DNA of 64,000 nucleotides from Phytophthora sp. 'mugwort' (lineage: Eukaryota; Oomycota; Peronosporomycetes; Peronosporales; Peronosporaceae), in NCBI GenBank assembly GCA_033558025.1, contig JAUCEF010000007.1, positions 7,936,001 to 8,000,000 of the forward strand, given 5' to 3'. Under the pieces are notes generated by a model that was not told where the DNA came from, did no database searches, and was given only the letters and a program-made list of their open reading frames with translations. The position numbers were made by a program, and so were the translations under genes. Positions 2,825 through 62,790 of the stretch are shown one piece after another (position 1 is the stretch's first letter; each line of letters begins with the position of its first letter).

Positions 2825-3210
2825 GAAGCGGAAAGTAATTTAGTGAGGCGTGCTGTACAGTGAGTGTATGTCATTTACGTCTTTAGGGTACCGTTTGTCC
2901 ATGTTCTCGCCGGCGGGACGCCATTCTCTGTCTGGTACCATCTTGGCAACGCTGTGAGCCACTTGTGCAGTTGACGGCAAATTCTGAAGTGATTGGATCC
3001 ACTCGCCAGTTGAAGTGGCTGGCAGCAGAATGATTGCGGGGGGTTACAGCTGTGTGTACCACACCGCTTTCGCGGAGCATTTGAAATCTGCGCGCGAAGG
3101 AAATTGATTGGTGGAAAAACTATCTATAAAGAACTCTTAGTGGACGGCATTGGTACGCGTTTGATCCGTTTTCTATCAGATTTCATAGGAATTGCCACGA
3201 GACAGTTTCC

Positions 3211-3226
3211 CCCTCATTTTCCCTCT
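3211..3226 (+). promoter_or_regulatory. Oomycete initiator-like core promoter element
   Basis: CCCTCATTTTCCCTCT resembles the oomycete Inr (TCATTYY type) and lies 17 bp upstream of ATG 3243. Transcription beginning here would exclude the earlier in-frame ATG at 3192, so it decides the start of the next gene. By eye only. Confidence 0.4.
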
Positions 3227-3242
3227 TGAGAACTTATCGGCG

Positions 3243-5207
3243 ATGCCTTCGAGTCCTAATACTTACGATGTGAGCCTGCTGTCGGCGGGCCTGGGAGCGC
3301 AGGCAGCGGCCACCAGCGTGGCCATGGCGCAGCAGGTGCAGGCGCAGCAGGCCCAGGTTCAAGCCCAAGTCAAGGCCCAACTGCAGGCCGCGCAAGATGC
3401 TAACCAGGCCATGGCCATAGCCAGCGTAGATGGCTCCACGCCCTCTCCGGTCGCCGCCGTCTCAACCGAGGCCAAGGCCAAGCCGCGTCGCCGCCGGGCC
3501 GACGGCGGCGGCAACCTGACGGTGGAGCAGAAGCGTCGCATCTGCGAAAAGCACCGCAGCACGCCCAAGATCACACAGAAGGACCTGTGCCGTTGGGCGA
3601 AACTTGAGTTTAACCTGCAGCGGGCTCCCACGCAGCCCACGATGAGCAATATCCTCAAGCACGAGCACATGTTCAAGGACAATGTGCTGGGTGTGCTTGG
3701 CTCCCAACGCAAGACCATCCGCCCCACGCGCCACGCGCACTTCGACCAGGTGTTGGCCAATTGGGTCATGGAGCGCCAGAACAAAGGTAACATCACCGGC
3801 GACATGATCAAATCCAAGGGCCGCGAGCTCGTCAAGCAAATGGGCCTGGAGGGCAAGCTCGGCTTCTCTAACGGCTGGCTGGCCTCCTTTAAGGCGCGTC
3901 ACGGCCTCATGAAGCGCTCGAACAACCTCCAAAATGACAAGAGAACCGCTGTAAATGCAGGTGCGGTCGGCAAGGACGGCGCCGCCTATGGAGGCATCTT
4001 GGACGCCAACAACGGCATGCTACCGAACGGCCTCTCGGTGGACCCCAATTACATGCTCCCACCCGTGTCCATGGACTTGACGCTTGAGCAGATCCAGGAA
4101 ATGTTACGCGACTACGTGCCCAGCGACATTTACACAGTGGACGAGACTGGCCTCTTCTTCCGTGCATCACCCAACAAACTCGTGCAGGGAGATGAAGCGC
4201 AGTCCATGCTGGCTGAAGAGGCTCGACTCACCGTGCTGCTGGCTGTAAATGCCGATGCCTCGGATCTCATGGAGCCATATATTATCGGCAATGTGGTGCC
4301 CCCAAAGAACATCAAGATGGCGTCAATTTCGCAGCTCGGCTACCATTACGTGTGTAGTAGCAAGGCCCGCATGACGGTCTTCATCTTCCAGCAATGGCTA
4401 CGCGATTTCAATGCGCGTATGGCTAGTGCTCACCGCAACGTTGTGTTGCTCATGGACAATGCGCCGTCGCATGTGCTGGGCTGTGTGGCGCTTTCGAACG
4501 TGCGTGTCGTCATGTTTGCCCCGCATCTTGGTATGAAGGTGCAGCCTATGCGCGGCGGTATCTTGTCCTCATTTAAGGGTAAATACCGCCTCAAGCACCT
4601 CACACTGGCCATTGACCACCTTGAAGATGGCCTGTCGAATATCTACCACGTGACGCAGATTCAGGCCATGAACTGGATTGTGGATGCGTGGCAGCAGACC
4701 TCGAAGGAGATCATCGTGAACACCTGGAAGCCGCTTGGCATTTCGGCGCCGTTCGCTTTCGACTCTAATATGGATGGTGCTGATGACAAGAACGTCGAAG
4801 AGGAACTCTGGGGGTTACTGTACTGCCTGCAACTCAGCGGTGTCGTTAACACAAAGGTGCTGGTGAACTCGCGTTGGGAGAATGACATTCACAAGCGTCT
4901 TAATGAAGACATGATCGAAGATCCGCAAGAGAACAACGAGGAGTTCCGCGCACCGAACGCTGTGTCTGTTGACCACTCGGGTATGGGCGGTAGCCACTTG
5001 TCTGCCGACGATGAGCACAATTCTGGTGCTCATGCGATCAGTGCCAAGGAGCAGCTCAAGGCCTTCCGTGATGTTATTCGTTATCTGGAACGCACAGGTA
5101 CAGCCGACGCGCGGGATCCGCAGCTGATGAACGTCATCGAGTTTCTCAAGAAGAAACAGCTCAGTCTGCGCTTCGACAACGCCAGCAACACGACGCTCAC
5201 CATATAA
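3243..5207 (+). CDS. Domesticated CENP-B/pogo-like transposase (DDE_1) protein
   Basis: Intronless, intact 654-residue protein with GC-rich host-like codon use. Layout: Ala/Gln-rich low-complexity segment (residues ~20-60), a basic patch KPRRRR (~80-85), a CENP-B_N-type helix-turn-helix (~91-140: LTVEQKRRI ... RWAKLEFNLQRAP), a second CENPB-type HTH (~160-225, ending GFSNGWLASFKARHG), then a DDE_1 core. First catalytic Asp is in YTVDETGL (D300) and the second in LLMDNAPSH (D405). The third site, normally QPxDxG, reads VQPMRGG (R437), so the acid is lost. An intact frame with a lost catalytic residue suggests a domesticated DNA-binding protein rather than an active transposase. No flanking inverted repeats or target duplication seen. 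Start is supported by the Inr-like site just upstream. Function unknown; centromere or transcription roles would be guesses. Confidence 0.85.
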   Translation: MPSSPNTYDVSLLSAGLGAQAAATSVAMAQQVQAQQAQVQAQVKAQLQAAQDANQAMAIASVDGSTPSPVAAVSTEAKAKPRRRRADGGGNLTVEQKRRICEKHRSTPKITQKDLCRWAKLEFNLQRAPTQPTMSNILKHEHMFKDNVLGVLGSQRKTIRPTRHAHFDQVLANWVMERQNKGNITGDMIKSKGRELVKQMGLEGKLGFSNGWLASFKARHGLMKRSNNLQNDKRTAVNAGAVGKDGAAYGGILDANNGMLPNGLSVDPNYMLPPVSMDLTLEQIQEMLRDYVPSDIYTVDETGLFFRASPNKLVQGDEAQSMLAEEARLTVLLAVNADASDLMEPYIIGNVVPPKNIKMASISQLGYHYVCSSKARMTVFIFQQWLRDFNARMASAHRNVVLLMDNAPSHVLGCVALSNVRVVMFAPHLGMKVQPMRGGILSSFKGKYRLKHLTLAIDHLEDGLSNIYHVTQIQAMNWIVDAWQQTSKEIIVNTWKPLGISAPFAFDSNMDGADDKNVEEELWGLLYCLQLSGVVNTKVLVNSRWENDIHKRLNEDMIEDPQENNEEFRAPNAVSVDHSGMGGSHLSADDEHNSGAHAISAKEQLKAFRDVIRYLERTGTADARDPQLMNVIEFLKKKQLSLRFDNASNTTLTI

Positions 5208-26583: not shown

Positions 26584-28497
26584 CAGTCGCACCTCCATAA
26601 ATGGACCCCTCTAACTGGTAAGCTACTCCTATGCCCCCTCTTTATCTGAACAAAACCCTCTTTATTCGGTAACTGATCCCACCGATGGGCTGCTTCACTC
26701 CCTATATGATAGTCCGCTGATAGCCAGCCATTCGGATTCAAGCAGCCCTACGCTCAGTCTAAGCTCAGTTCGCAAATTCAGCCCCCCCCTCTCACACATC
26801 GATGTCGCCCCCGCCTGCGCCGCAAACGCTGACCATGGACGAGAAGCTTCAAGTCCGATTAAAATATTAGCGCTTCCCCCGCATCAAAGACGCCGATTTG
26901 ATTGACTGGCTCGCATAACCTTGAAGAAACCCGTGAGTGCTAGCACTCTTCGACGCATTCGTAACAAGGAGCCAGCGTACGTTTGCAGCTCCAACACGTC
27001 AGCAAGACGACGCCGCCGCGTCAAATTTCCGGAACTGGAGCGTCAGCTTGTGGACTTCTTTCACCGCAATGAAGAGACCGCTATCATGTCGGATGACATT
27101 TTGTTGCTCAAAGCCGGCAACATCAAATCTAGCCTCAACATTAGTGGCGACCAGCTTCGTTTGAGTAATGGGTGGCTAGCAAAGTTTAAGAAACGGAATG
27201 GCATATAGTCAAAGCGACTTCACAGTGAAGCCGACAGCGTGAGTGCTATCGAAGTCCGTTCAGCTCGCTACATGCTGCAAGACGTCACGCGCCAATATCA
27301 GCCTGAAGATATCTACAATTTCGACGATTGCTCTCTTTTATCGACTTGCCCCAATCAAATCTTGCCACCATGAGTAGACAAGGTAAAAAACGGGACAAAG
27401 CGCGCATTACAATTGCATTCTGCTGCAATGCAACTGGTACACACAAAATGGACATTGATATTATAGGTACCGAAACGAACCCGCGGTGCTGTCAAGGTGG
27501 TACGCGTCAGGCTTTAAAGGACAAGCATGTTTCCTACTTCCACAGCAAAAAGGCTTGGATGACGGCATCCATCTTTCGAGAGTGGCTACAGACGTTCAAC
27601 TTGAAAATGGCCGTCCAGAATCGGAAGGTACTTTTGCTGATTGACAACGCGTCCAGTCACAAGGTATCCCATAACCTTTCACACGTAACGTCCGATTCCT
27701 GCCCCCCCCGAACCTGACCTCGTCTTGTGCAGCCTTTGGATGCCGGTAAGTTTTGTTTTTATGATTGTGTTTTAGTAATATTAAACGCAATGTGTGATTC
27801 ACGTCTTTACAGGTATTATCCGCTCCTTCAGGGCTCGATATCGGAGACAATTCGTCCGTTGGTGCCTGGATGCAATCGAGGGGGATATCAAATGAAAGCT
27901 CAACATTCTTGAAGCTATTCAGTTCAGTATTGGTAGCTGGAGCGACGTCAGCGCTGACTGCATACGCAACTGCTGGATAAAGGCCAGAATTGTGGTCGCC
28001 AACTTGCTCGGCGGCATTCGACAGGAAGGCGACTAAGTGATGCCTCGTGACCACCAAGCGATTGCTGAAATAACGAATATGCTGGCGAGTGTGAACGTCC
28101 ACGAAAGTGTGGCAGAGTTTCTGAAGATAGACCTTGAGAGGTTGAATTACATGGGCCGGTCGAAGACAAGCAGACTGATGGGGCGTGCAGCGATGCGGAC
28201 AGTGAAGCTGAAGACGATGATCCTCCAGTCTCAGCTTCCACTGCTCTTGCCTACTGTATGAGCTGTCATAGTTTTTCTTTCAGGGCGAAGGAGACTCCAA
28301 GCATGAGCAACAAATGCTGCAGTCATTGACCACGCTTGCCAGAACGCAGCTCGTACAACGAAGACGGCAGATGTCTCTGGATAGCTCTCTGCTTCACGAT
28401 GAGTAATATGTAACCAATTTTCTAACTGACCGTTTCTCTAAAATGAAAACACGTTTTCGTGGCTTCAAAGCTTGCACCGTTTAGGGAGGTGTGACTA
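26584..28497 (+). mobile_element. pogo-like DNA transposon inserted in Polinton copy A
   Basis: Bounded by matching termini: left CAGTCGCACCTCC at 26584, and the right end, read inward, TAGTCACACCTCC. Each is next to a TA dinucleotide (26582-26583; 28498-28499), the pogo/Tc1 target duplication. Length 1,914 bp, holding one decayed transposase gene. Confidence 0.7.
26801..28040 (+). pseudogene. pogo/Tigger-type transposase, stops and frameshifts
   Basis: CENP-B-type DNA-binding part (MDEKLQVRLKY with early stops, then VKFPELERQLVDFFHRN ... LRLSNGWLAKFKKRNGI, 26,840-27,208), and a DDE_1 core with IYNFDDCSLL (27,310), LLLIDNASSH (27,637) and QPLDAG (27,730). A frame break lies at a run of C near 27,705 just before QPLDAG. 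A plausible small intron-like gap (GTAAG...TTACAG) follows at 27,747-27,812. At least four stops: dead. Confidence 0.7.
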
Positions 28498-56920: not shown

Positions 56921-57396
56921 GGATGGTTTCCTTTCCGGAGTGCAACGCGTTTTCTGGTATAATTTGATATCCTTGCAAAATTGCGTAAATATATTCGGGA
57001 GGGTTTCGTACTGGCCAAGAAATGAGGCCTTCGCAAGGAATTAGCCGAAGGAATGAGCCTCATTCCTGGGCTCATCGTTTAAGAAACGACTAACTGAAAC
57101 CCCCTATTAGAAACAGGAAAAACATGCGAATTTCCGTCAACGCCACAAATATCGCCTATGCAATTAAAACTCTCGCAATCGATCTGTGAGGAAAGTTATG
57201 TGCCCAAAGTGGACCTTCTGTGATCGTGACTTAAACCGTTCGTTTACCTTACTGGTATGTCTACAGATGACCCAGACTCGAGCGGGAAGTGCGCTGTCAA
57301 AAGCCCCCTCCGTCACAATGACAACGAGCAAGTGCAATTCTATGTTTCTTAGTAGGTTATCGTTAATGTATACATGTATACGGAAGCAATCGCGCA

Positions 57397-57900
57397 ATGC
57401 TTCGAGAATTAGGTTTCTGGTGCTCCGAGGGGGAGCTGTCAAGCGCCGAGTCCTTAGACGCCAGCCGTCCGAATCCTCTTCACCTTGTTGATGATTCGTG
57501 GTTTACCGAGTGTGATCCCGCCTTGCTGAAGACCATCGAGTGGTACCTCACTCGGGCTATCGTAGAGAGTCATGAGCTCGCCTACAGTTTCTGTCGCTTC
57601 GCTGACTGCCCGTCGGCACTGGAGCAGCCTCGAGTTATGGGCGCGTGCACGTTGACCGATGGGGTTTACTGTTGGCCTGAGGGATATTGGCACTACGTGG
57701 GACACCACCACGTGAAGCCGCCCCAAGATTTCCTCGATCACATGCTGGAGAGATACGGCACGATAATGGAGATGACGAGGAAGGCGAGGGCCCAGAAGAA
57801 GCTGCTAATGTGGGACGACGTGGAGCACAATGCTGTGGTTATGCCGCAAGCCATGCAGGACTGGATCACGAGCTACACGACGATTCAAGTGGAGCCGTGA
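57397..57900 (+). CDS. Conserved-looking small protein, function unknown
   Basis: Intact 167-residue frame, host-like codon use, Trp/His/Tyr-rich core (DGVYCWPEGYWHYVGHHHV, about residues 90-108), flanked by acidic and helical parts (FLDHMLERYGTIMEMTRKARAQKK). No family recognised, no signal peptide or membrane segment. Composition and lack of repeats argue for a true gene. It starts 290 bp after the Harbinger-like element, which probably altered its upstream region. Confidence 0.65.
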   Translation: MLRELGFWCSEGELSSAESLDASRPNPLHLVDDSWFTECDPALLKTIEWYLTRAIVESHELAYSFCRFADCPSALEQPRVMGACTLTDGVYCWPEGYWHYVGHHHVKPPQDFLDHMLERYGTIMEMTRKARAQKKLLMWDDVEHNAVVMPQAMQDWITSYTTIQVEP

Positions 57901-58631
57901 TCGGGGAGATGCCTGACATTGCACCGCTGCTACTGTAGTATCATATTGGTTCATCATGCAGCGAATATATATGTCGTAAACTACTGTTTTAGCGGTGGCA
58001 GGTGGAAAGCGATTCTGACACTTTCCCATCGTTTGTGGTTACGAGACAGTCATGGTTTTTGAATTGGCCTTGACCATTATCATGCAGGCACAAAAACTAT
58101 CAGTTCCAGACTCATGGAAAGCTTAATTGAGGTTATTGTTGTTGTTGTTGTTTTCAATTGCGCTATTTCGCGCGGAAATTGAGCGTCAAATACACAGCAC
58201 CGATTTTTTTGACAGGAAGTAACCAAAAACAATGCCGATTGATTTACTAAGGATATAGCCTATGCGGGCCATTCGAGGTTTTGAGAATGCGATAAATCTG
58301 AAACCACTCGCTAATGCTTACGAGCAGTGCTAGATTCCTTTTCTTCTGAAGAAGATCACGCCAGAGTTCAAGGACCTCATTGGCTCTGCCATAGACCACA
58401 GCGAACAGATTCCGACGAAGGAACCTATAGACCGGCAGCGACTTGCTCGGAAATGACAATATTGTGTCCCGAGTATTCGTTAAGAATTCGCTTTTCAATT
58501 TATAGCATGGCAAGGATGTTCATGCCACTCACATTTAAGGATCAATTCAAAATGTTTGCTTCGGCAACGAGATCTCGTTGGATACATGTACATGCATATA
58601 AATAACGCCCTTAATCCTTGAGTCGATGCTT
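57901..58631. other. No gene recognised; (TTG)n microsatellite at ~58,136-58,152
   Basis: 730 bp between the orphan gene and the stop of the fusion gene. Holds about six TTG units. An 88-codon minus frame at 58,513-58,247 has no recognisable features. Confidence 0.4.
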
Positions 58632-60026
58632 TTACCAGTCTATGATATCGCCTTTCCCAAAGTGAAGAAGTTGTAGCGGATCCCCGAGCTGTGCACGAGA
58701 GATAAGTCGCGACATACCCTCGACACTTTCCTCAGGTTCCACGGCACCGTTAAAGTTGTTGTACGCAGTGTTCACATTCCCTGGGTGCAGCAACAAGCAT
58801 CCAATGTTTTGAAGCTCCAAGTCGATCGCCAAGCTCTTCGTGAATACATTTAGTGCACCCTTCGACGCACGATGCGCGTAAGCTCCACCAGAACTGTTGT
58901 CGGATATACTGCCAATACGCGACGTAACTTGGGCCACAAATGCAAAACCTCTTGTACTTGCTGCCAGCCTCAGGTTAGGCACCAACGCACGTGTCACGAA
59001 CAGCGGGCCCAATGCATTCACCTGGAACTGCCGCACACAGTCCTCAGGTGTCGTTTCATTCAAATTGAATAGTCCAGATGCACCGGCATTATTGACCAGC
59101 AGATCAATCGACACTCCATTCAGCACTCGCGCCATTTCTTCAATCGACTGTTGATCCGCAACATCCAAGGGGACCAGCCTCCACGGGTACAACGCTTTCA
59201 ACTATAATACCAGCAAAATTACATAAATCCAGACAAAATGAAGCTCCCCATCCACACTCACGGCATCCTCTTAAGCCTCCAACGCACATACCTCGTCGGC
59301 TTTGTCCGCATCTCTCACCGCCGCAATAACATACCACCCCTCCTTCATATAGTGCTTGACAAAGGCCAGTCCAAGGCCCTTACTCGCACCTGTAATCATC
59401 ACCGTCTTTTTTGCTGGTCTACTTGCGACTTCTGTCACTCTCGGTGTCACGTTCACCGTTGTGGCCACACGGACAATCTGTCTCCCAGAAGTGTCTCGTG
59501 CCAGCGCCAAATGGTCCGTCACATCCGTCAACGTCCTCTGCGGGTGTCCCTCTGGCACAGCCGCACTATCCACAATCCCCGCATTATCATCCACACCACG
59601 GCGTCGGAACTCTCTAAATCTGATTCCATTTCTTGACATGAAGTTGGTCATCCAGCCGACCGACAGTCCAAGCTTCGGGCGTCTCTCGGGCGGCAACTCC
59701 GCCAGAATCTCCTGTGCCTTTTGTACCAATAGTTTGCGAGAGAGACGGATGTCTCCAGCCTGGCAGGTGCCCACGAATATCCTGAGCGCCGTCTCCAGCT
59801 CGGGGCTCACGACGTGGCGTCCTCGCTTGGTGATCCCCTGGAGATGCTTTTGCTCGATCTCCTCGGCCGCCAGGAGGATCTTCTTGACCGTGTTGGCGGA
59901 CGGCGCGCGCTCTAGGTTGAAGGCGGTCAAGGCCCACTGTGCCAGCTTCACCTGGGACAACCCCGGATTGCGGCGGTGCTTAACGATGAGTTGGTACTTC
60001 TCCTCGATCGTAAGCCACTTCCCCAT
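58632..60026 (-). CDS. CENP-B/pogo-type DNA-binding domain fused to short-chain dehydrogenase/reductase
   Basis: Two exons: 60026-59292 and 59201-58632; intron 59202-59291 (GTATGT...TATAG, 90 bp, phase 0). 434 residues. Residues 1-60: CENP-B_N-type HTH (LTIEEKYQLIVKHRRNP ... LAQWALTAFNLERAP). Residues 70-138: second CENPB-type HTH (LRIFVGTC ... LGLSVGWMTNFMSRNG). A linker to ~205 follows, then an SDR Rossmann domain to the C-terminus: TGASKGLG (212-219), LDVAD (257-261), NNAG (282-285), VNALGP (N307), SRIGSIS, and AYAHRASKGALN. The intron lies inside the SDR (DKADE|LKALYPW), and the spliced reading restores the family sequence, so the fusion is one transcript and not two adjacent genes. K359 of YxxxK is kept, but the Tyr position (355) is His; the nearest Tyr is two residues earlier. 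Relatives are C-factor/sniffer-type SDRs. It may bind DNA in response to NAD(P) state (inference). Confidence 0.88.
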
Positions 60027-61177
60027 GATTCCTTGCTGGATACAGGTCGTGGTCCAATCAGATTGCGCTTATCGTGAAAGTTCCTTATTCTAGCACTGCA
60101 AAACGTTTAGAATTAGTCCCATAATTCGGTCCTTCAAATTTATTAGCTTTTATAATAGGGTTTTTGAAATGTTTACAGTTAACCGGATCAATTGCTACAG
60201 TCTGTGCAGCAAGCTGTCAGCAACAGAAAATGGTTACAGTACCGGTAGACGAAAATAATGTGCTTGATGGGTAAGGTCACCTTACCCTCCTTAAAGGTGT
60301 AATGATTGGCGTTACCGCAACCATAACTTCTACCATTTACGATTTGACGACACTAAATTTGGCAACCTTATCGCTAAAGCAACTGTTCCGGCAACCTTCG
60401 AAAAAGAAAAAGCAACCCACTTTAAACGTAGATGCAACAATGTAATTTACAATAAAATACACAGCCATGATGGCTGGTGGTGGACACATTATTCAGTTTT
60501 CAGAAAATTAGACATGTCAGTAAGTTCGATCACAGTCTGGCATCACATTCTCCTCGCATGCAAGAGCAACGATTCTCCCTCTTCGCCGCTATGAACGAGA
60601 AAATAATGGCACCGAGCTTTCGAGTATAACGGATAACCTGATGCAGATGCGCGCTAGCTTGGAGAAGATGATGGGAGCTCAGTTAGAGATTCAAGCTCTG
60701 ATCAAAGACTGCGAAGAACACAGCAACGAGTTGACTGAGTCATTTGGTGATGAAGACAGCTGTTCATTTTGCGAAGCCACGTCGACTTTGTTACTCTTCT
60801 CGGAATGTTGGCGAACAAGTTATTTAAGCACCAGTGATGCGGCATTTTGTATTCGAACGTCAATACAGCGCCTTCATGAAAATCAATGTTGGTTTTCTAA
60901 CATCTGATAAATCCTATTAGCTTCTTCTGCATCGTACGTAGATATCGCTCTTGCGAATGGCACACAACCGTCCACATCATTTTTAAGCGCATCACGCTGA
61001 CGTCCTTCTTGGATACGTTGTGCTCCTGGAGCCGCAAGTTTCCAGTAAGATAGCTGTGGGCTTGGGCGACCACCAGAACACCGCAGCTGGAGCTGTCAGG
61101 TTGCTACGGCGCCTCAACCCACTGAATTGAGTGAATAGCCAGTTGATGGATATTCTCGGATGCTTAATGCCAACGTT
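60027..61177. repeat. MULE-flanking repeats; palindrome at 60,269-60,287
   Basis: GGGTAAGGT-C-ACCTTACCC (9-bp arms) at 60,269, then GCAACCTTA / AAAGCAAC motifs near 60,360-60,415, which recur at 61,905-61,965 beside the MULE coding region. An 88-codon plus frame at 60,641-60,907 is helical but unrecognised. Confidence 0.4.
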
Positions 61178-61595
61178 TTACGAACTTAATAAGCCTTCGG
61201 TTTCCTCGCTGTATTCGTCATCATCATTCTTTTGTATGCCCTCCCAAATCTTAATCATTTGGTCGCGATACTCATCATCGATAAGAAGCTCGTACATGAA
61301 AACTTGCACATGGGGAATCTTGTTGGTATCTTCGTAGTGCAGACAAACTAGTGAGGCCCCAGTGGTTTCCACTCAAATGCACCGGGTGAATAATGAACTT
61401 AATATCAGCAATCTGTGTCTTGGGTGTAGAAGGCCAGCCCACCACTCCAACCATTGTCGCAAGCAACAGACATTGTCCCACTGATCCCGCTATGGCTTCC
61501 AAACAAAAATCGACGGCACTATCGTTCAACCAGCCTCGGCACAGGCTTCCGACGATGTTGTCAAATCCAACACAGACTGAGTTAGACCGCGTCAC
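61178..61595 (-). pseudogene. Ulp1-like (C48) cysteine protease domain of the MULE
   Basis: GWLNDSAVDFCLE near 61,530 is the substrate-groove motif (W-L-D/N-D) of Ulp1 proteases and IIHPVHLSGNHWGL near 61,390 holds the catalytic His-Trp. In the next frame, VCLHYEDTNKIPHVQVF supplies the expected beta strand. The catalytic Asp and Cys regions are not clear. One frame change near 61,372. Confidence 0.55.
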
Positions 61596-62790
61596 AAACT
61601 GCGTTCACGGCCGGCTGGATGAGAACATCGAATAATCTCGTTCGCAAGCATTTGGTGACGCATACGGACTGCATCCACCGAAAGTCCGGTGGTTTGTTTC
61701 GACTACAAAGAGATCCACCTCTGAGTCAACTTTTTTCCAGTCCTACTCTAGCCATTTTCTGTCTTCTATCCACGATTTGCATTTGGCCTTCATATCGTAG
61801 AATGCTGTCAACGTACCCACATACGTCCTACAAGCAAAACAAAACGACTTTAGTACCCACGTACGTATATCCCTCTCACTGGCTTGTGTCTGATAAAGCA
61901 ACCATAACGGTAAAGCACTTTACCAGCAACCTTAACGACAAAGCAACCTTACCCGCTAAATTTCCACAGTTTTGGGTCAATAGTGACAACGGGTAGTTGA
62001 CCTTGCTTCTTCTTGCTGCGCTCCAGTTCGTCAGGGCTGCCTTGCTCTTTCTTGGCTGTTATCACCACTGCCTGCATTAACGGGCGATGTCTCCTGGAAT
62101 GATGAATGTGTGCATGTAACCTCTTGGTCGCACAACTCCCCACTTGCATTCCATCGACGGTCGAGACGGTACGCGTCCTCCAGCTGAACCGGATATGTCT
62201 CCAACATATCCAGCACATTTTTCAGGTCTGATGTGTTTCTTGCCCTTTTTAGCAGCTCCTGCAGCGACACAGCGAGGTTGCTAAGGTATTTGTGAACGGC
62301 AAGTCGGTCTGTCCCAGATCCGAGTTTTGTTTGCCTTAGCTGTTTAACAGTTGTTTTCACTTTTCCTCGACCTGATGGCCTAGGAACGTTGATGTATCAA
62401 CCTGTCTCGCTGATGCCACTATCGTTGAATCTGCGGATTGCGGCGGATTGCATACTACAGTTAAGGTTGGCCCATCCACAGTCGTCCCTGACTTTGACTC
62501 TGTCTCTGGCTTCAGCGATAATGAGTTGACCTCCAGTCGTTTTTGAAGTGACTTAATAGGCTGAGTTGGAGGGACTTCATCTTCCGACGCGCTACTATCC
62601 TTCATACTGGGGTCCGTGCAAGCTGTGTCGCTTTCTAGTGCGTCCATCAGCTTCAAAGTTTCCAAGGCATCTGCAAAATCGATTGCCGAGATGAATCCGA
62701 TTCATTCTTAAATTCTGTGGCATCTTCTACAGGTACTTCAGTCTTCTTCGTGCTTGACTTCCCACGTTGTGGTCCTATCTCCACCGTTTC

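Follow-up and report, generated by a model that had tools for sequence, protein, structure and literature searches.

Fusion of a CENP-B/pogo-type DNA-binding domain to an SDR domain without the catalytic tyrosine in Phytophthora sp. 'mugwort'

In Phytophthora sp. 'mugwort', a DNA-binding domain of the CENP-B/Tc5 type, which by its sequence is of transposase origin, forms a single spliced gene with a Sniffer-like SDR domain. The gene lies in the window, i.e., the 64,000-nucleotide stretch of DNA that was analysed (C7:7936001-8000000 of the 86.26-Mb genome), and a second copy of the fusion is found elsewhere. Judging from the two sequences, both fusions have lost the residue needed for SDR catalysis and have retained their frame and both domains; the window protein is probably no longer an enzyme but a DNA-bound protein. 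We give about even weight to the reading that it represents a transposase-capture gene, in which the captured DNA-binding domain sits on a dimerising, NAD(P)(H)-sensing SDR pseudoenzyme. The main rival is a purely structural dimerisation role of the SDR half.

Gene structure and the two fused domains

The whole coding region occupies positions 58632..60026 of the minus strand and specifies 434 aa in two exons; the ATG at 60026 and the stop at 58632 are exactly those of the original prediction. Exon 1 (59292..60026, on the minus strand like all features of the gene) has 245 codons and comprises the CENP-B/pogo-type DNA-binding domain (59598..60026, residues ~1-143, two HTH units), a linker (59418..59597, residues 144-203) and the start of the Sniffer-like SDR domain, which spans residues ~204-434. 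Within the exon-1-encoded part of the SDR (59292..59417), residues 212-219 form the cofactor motif TGASKGLG. Exon 1 is followed by a 90-nt GT-AG intron in phase 0 (59202..59291), whose ends read GTATGT and TTATAG, and by exon 2 (58635..59201), which encodes the remaining SDR with NNAG at residues 282-285, His355 in place of the catalytic Tyr and the retained Lys359. The TAA stop codon lies at 58632..58634, and reading the gene unspliced gives two in-frame stops. Pfam recognises both HTH_Tnp_Tc5 (residues 74-138, 35.8 bits against a cut-off of 22.2) and adh_short (residues 207-394, 101.7 bits against a cut-off of 26.6) within the 434 aa, and the HTH-to-SDR fusion in one spliced gene, as originally proposed, holds.

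Two HTH units of the CENP-B/pogo type had also been proposed. The first of them gave no Pfam match when the window protein was searched as a single sequence. A profile built from 12 HTH rows of the genome, with the window row first, covers chain residues 7-130 of the human CENP-B two-HTH domain (1hlv, E 8.4e-14) and also matches the corresponding domain of Abp1 from fission yeast (1iuf, E 2.8e-13). CENP-B_N (PF04218) has nine matches in the genome, and the window gene is not one of them. The DDE_1 domain of an active pogo transposase was not detected by Pfam in the 434 aa at E values up to 1. An AlphaFold model of exon 1, made from the single sequence without an alignment, has a mean pLDDT of 36. 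A tree built from 23 HTH rows places the two fusions in a group of eight (92/91). The other members are a free-standing HTH protein at C17:389054 and five rows of transposon type; for four of these five, a DDE_1 match follows shortly downstream. The fused DNA-binding domains have one of their closest relatives in the free-standing protein (L019:2375-3064, minus strand; C17:389054-389521), which has a frame of 230 codons and, by eye, ends in a charged, helix-like tail in place of an SDR.

A mobile element was considered as the nature of the window gene and rejected, since it is not flanked by inverted repeats of ≥14 nt (57000-61600) and no close DNA copy exists. The sole inverted repeat of ≥14 nt in this interval has one arm inside the gene, and DNA-level matches elsewhere in the genome number two only, both partial and 68-69% identical. 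The gene is low in copy, is without terminal inverted repeats of ≥14 nt and shares one frame with a non-transposon domain. Elsewhere in the window, a 671-aa frame with HTH_Tnp_Tc5 and DDE_1 (3192-5204, plus strand) is apparently a full-length pogo/Tc5-type transposase, and degenerate stretches of HTH_Tnp_Tc5 and DDE_1, interrupted by stops (~27005-27747, plus strand), are the remains of another pogo-like element.

The SDR half most resembles SDRs of the PRK08177/PRK06953 type, with scores under the NCBIfam equivalog cut-offs, and, among solved structures, the Sniffer-like carbonyl reductases 5idq, 5tqv and 1yo6. A search of the genome with this half returned 19 matches (34 of 34 candidates scored), 14 of which were aligned; the five omitted are near-copies of C4:3551354 (two) and C4:3502699 (one) and two distant matches. 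In the resulting 13-row tree, both fusions form one clade (100/98) adjoining the stand-alone gene C7:8404934-8405709, the branch of the second copy being long (0.96 against 0.36). A cluster of stand-alone Sniffer-like SDR genes occupies C4:3466095-3560569. It includes three almost identical units (3551, 3553 and 3555 kb) and a pair of matching copies that lie on opposite strands (3495 and 3502 kb). An HTH_Tnp_Tc5 match (C4:3504747-3504923, plus strand) is located ~1.4 kb downstream from where the SDR copy C4:3502573-3503315 ends, in the reversed order.

The intron that had been placed inside the SDR is confirmed, and it lies at the intron site of the paralogues. An intron at the same site, just before the LK(A/K/E) codons, is found in 10 of the 12 stand-alone SDR rows (three computed, seven by eye); it is in phase 0 in nine of these, and the tenth (C4:3466095) shows an apparent exon 1 frame break. 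It is missing from L041, from the pseudogene L022 and from the second fusion copy. Because the stand-alone paralogues share the place of the intron, the splice model rests on more than consensus sites, and both the SDR half of the window gene and its splice site would derive from a host SDR gene, from which the intron was, most simply, inherited.

The second copy and constraint on the fusion

The second fusion copy lies on the same contig, ~620 kb from the window gene, at C7:7374157-7375473 (L017:1658-2974). It encodes 439 aa in one uninterrupted frame and aligns to all 434 residues of the window protein at 44% identity. An assembly artefact, considered as a source of the fusion, is ruled out by the identical domain order of this copy. 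By eye from the match lists of the searches with the HTH half, the SDR half and the whole second copy, the HTH-SDR order occurs at these two places of the genome. The searches with the HTH half and with the whole second copy gave at least 83 matches (150 of 157 candidates scored) and at least 91 matches (96 of 165 scored), respectively. Pfam-family scans scored 150 of 552 HTH_Tnp_Tc5 and 19 of 99 adh_short candidates, so that more distant fusions may be missed. Four long HTH frames without DDE_1, among the matches listed, were inspected for other fusions; three are closed frames of >200 aa with only HTH families in Pfam, and one has no closed frame. A 519-aa HTH_Tnp_Tc5 protein without DDE_1 or recognised partner domain (L054:158-1714, minus strand) is possibly domesticated.

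A single fusion event followed by duplication is the simplest history. Two independent fusions are not favoured, since the SDR halves form one clade, though the pairing of the two fusions in the HTH tree has moderate support (83/81). Duplication of the whole neighbourhood was also considered and rejected: a blastp comparison of frames of ≥70 aa between three regions (window gene, 30 kb; second copy, 25 kb; nearest stand-alone SDR, 23 kb) gave nothing but SDR fragments and frames that lie on the SDR and HTH genes or antisense to them. Two remnants upstream of the second fusion hint at local SDR duplication, a C-terminal SDR fragment at a distance of ~1.3 kb (L017:268-381) and, at ~8 kb, an SDR pseudogene that has no intron (L022:2008-2582).

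Divergence between the two copies is unevenly distributed. The HTH halves are 49% identical and the SDR halves 51%, against 18% for the linker, and third codon positions differ more (0.59) than the other two (0.38 and 0.34). By NG86, dN is 0.49 and dS 1.69 overall, rough values in view of the saturated dS; for this one pair of paralogues, with the same saturation, the HTH half gives 0.48/0.92 (dN/dS ~0.5) and the SDR half 0.39/3.26. Neutral drift simulated along half the pair distance, as substitutions without indels, produced a mean of 10.4 stops and a minimum of 1 in 2000 runs, whereas neither of the two fusion frames contains any. The full-length second copy and the frames kept open against the simulated stops make the fusion more than chance.

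Catalytic residues and the role of the SDR half

In classical SDRs the Tyr of YxxxK is the proton donor, and the names of the remaining SDR motifs are equally well established. The Tyr and Lys of YxxxK are found in all 12 stand-alone SDR rows, pseudogene included, and structure-sequence alignments place a Tyr of 5idq, 5tqv and 1yo6 where the window gene has His. The window gene reads HxxxK (His355, Lys359) and the second copy FxxxM (Phe359, Met363). The original prediction spoke of a complete SDR fold; this stands for the adh_short fold and for TGxxxGxG, NNAG, Ser and Lys, but not for the catalytic Tyr, and with it the YxxxK of classical SDRs is absent from the window protein. The second copy belongs to adh_short too, yet has TGADNSAG for TGxxxGxG and NNAR for NNAG. 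Because its cofactor motif is eroded and its branch long, the two copies may not share the ability to bind a cofactor, and the second copy may be decaying.

The position of the intron and the trees support a course of events in which the CENP-B-type domain of a pogo-like transposon came to lie in frame before a host Sniffer-like SDR gene, whose intron the window copy has kept. The fusion would then have been duplicated on the same contig, as the two trees suggest (the HTH tree only moderately), and both copies have lost the SDR catalytic Tyr, with open frames and both domains kept. The N-terminal CENP-B-type domain would bind specific DNA. The SDR domain, without substrate turnover, would mediate dimerisation and, in the window copy, would still bind NAD(P)(H). 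The state of the cofactor or of a ligand could then change DNA binding or the recruitment of partners, and the window protein could be regarded as a single-chain counterpart of NmrA-type regulation. More tentatively, it is possible that the two genes form a family of transposase-born transcription or chromatin regulators with the dehydrogenase as a built-in NAD(P)(H) sensor, in which redox state would set occupancy at transposon-derived or promoter sites. The idea of a redox- or metabolite-sensing factor, already raised in the original prediction, gains weight because the SDR lacks its catalytic Tyr; what counts against ligand sensing is that the second copy has a degraded cofactor motif and a long branch.

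Several other explanations have to be weighed against this sensing pseudoenzyme. It is unlikely, if less so than for the remaining alternatives, that the SDR half is a structural dimerisation module only, in a CENP-B-like DNA or chromatin protein without ligand sensing. A dead SDR dimer would here replace the CENP-B dimerisation domain, and the protein would perhaps bind pogo-derived or centromeric repeats. The disappearance of the catalytic Tyr from both fusions is consistent with such a role, and so are the additional losses in the second copy, which affect the Lys and portions of the Gly and NNAG motifs, as well as the C-terminal dimerisation domain that CENP-B itself acquired according to passages of PMC7386202; with at least 150 HTH_Tnp_Tc5 matches in the genome (150 of 552 candidates scored), related sites may abound. 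However, the window gene retains TGxxxGxG, NNAG, Ser and Lys, for which a pure scaffold would have no need. The lost catalytic residues, taken with the long branch of the second copy, the dN/dS of ~0.5 in the HTH half and the two SDR remnants (a pseudogene and a fragment) close to the second copy, could also point to a chimera that is real, decaying and without present function. This is less likely still, as the frames of 434 and 439 codons are open despite 54% amino-acid divergence, the simulation yields 10.4 stops per lineage on average, and conservation resides in the domains and not in the linker.

A working dehydrogenase at chromatin, in which His355 or another residue would replace the Tyr and which would make or consume NADPH or a carbonyl signal at DNA, could draw on the Ser, Lys, NNAG and cofactor motif kept by the window gene; the invariance of the proton-donating Tyr in the stand-alone rows and the additional loss of the Lys in the second copy make it very improbable. 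Of all the readings, the one to which we attach the least probability is that two adjacent genes merely share a frame. Met210, inside the first strand of the SDR, could in principle start a truncated SDR product. Against this, residues 130-210 of the window protein contain no Met, and the start Met that several stand-alone SDRs have just before their first strand is missing; moreover, the architecture is present twice, with the second SDR in one clade with that of the window gene.

Relation to known systems

Pogo DNA-binding domains have repeatedly been captured, and the window gene adds a new variant to the host-transposase fusion genes. Partners known from other captures of transposase DNA-binding domains include KRAB, zinc-finger, F-box and similar domains. 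A metabolic enzyme domain as partner, with the catalytic Tyr gone in both copies, would show a direct route from an enzyme and a transposon to a possible redox-responsive regulator, and the two copies would offer a two-gene system for testing this route. No paper on a CENP-B/SDR fusion was found among the open-licence PMC papers searched, judged by titles and the starts of abstracts. A screen for fungal host-TE fusions states that it removed all oomycete genes (PMC10799480), and the word dehydrogenase does not occur in the main text of a work on metazoan transposon-derived factors (PMC10027918). A screen of 10 million eukaryotic proteins reports, in its abstract, capture by F-box genes (PMC12062965); its main text contains neither dehydrogenase nor adh_short, oomycete, Phytophthora, CENP or HTH_Tnp_Tc5.

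Most of the SDR half can be aligned with the Sniffer-like/PRK08177-type carbonyl reductases (5idq, 5tqv, 1yo6, 1sny), from which the window protein differs by the His at the place of the catalytic Tyr and by its N-terminal DNA-binding domain. The likeness to NmrA, a fungal regulator of the SDR superfamily, concerns the proposed mode of action, in which a Rossmann domain senses NAD(P) and influences a factor bound to DNA: NmrA is reported to prefer NAD+ and NADP+ over their reduced forms as ligands and to interact with the zinc finger of AreA (passages of PMC5122588). The window protein falls outside the NmrA family (PF05368, 19.7 bits against a cut-off of 27), and it carries the DNA-binding domain on the same chain. 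Pogo-derived host-transposase fusions, such as CENPB, POGK and POGZ or Abp1, Cbh1 and Cbh2, resemble the window gene in combining a CENP-B/HTH_Tnp_Tc5-type domain with another domain (passages of PMC7386202 and PMC10799480). The vertebrate pogo-derived genes treated there retain the DDE domain (PMC7386202), whereas in the window gene no DDE_1 was found and the partner is an SDR. KRABINER likewise unites a transposase sequence with a host gene (excerpts of PMC10799480), and F-box genes with a Tc1/Mariner HTH are a further case of transposase capture by a host gene (abstract of PMC12062965), in both instances with another partner domain.
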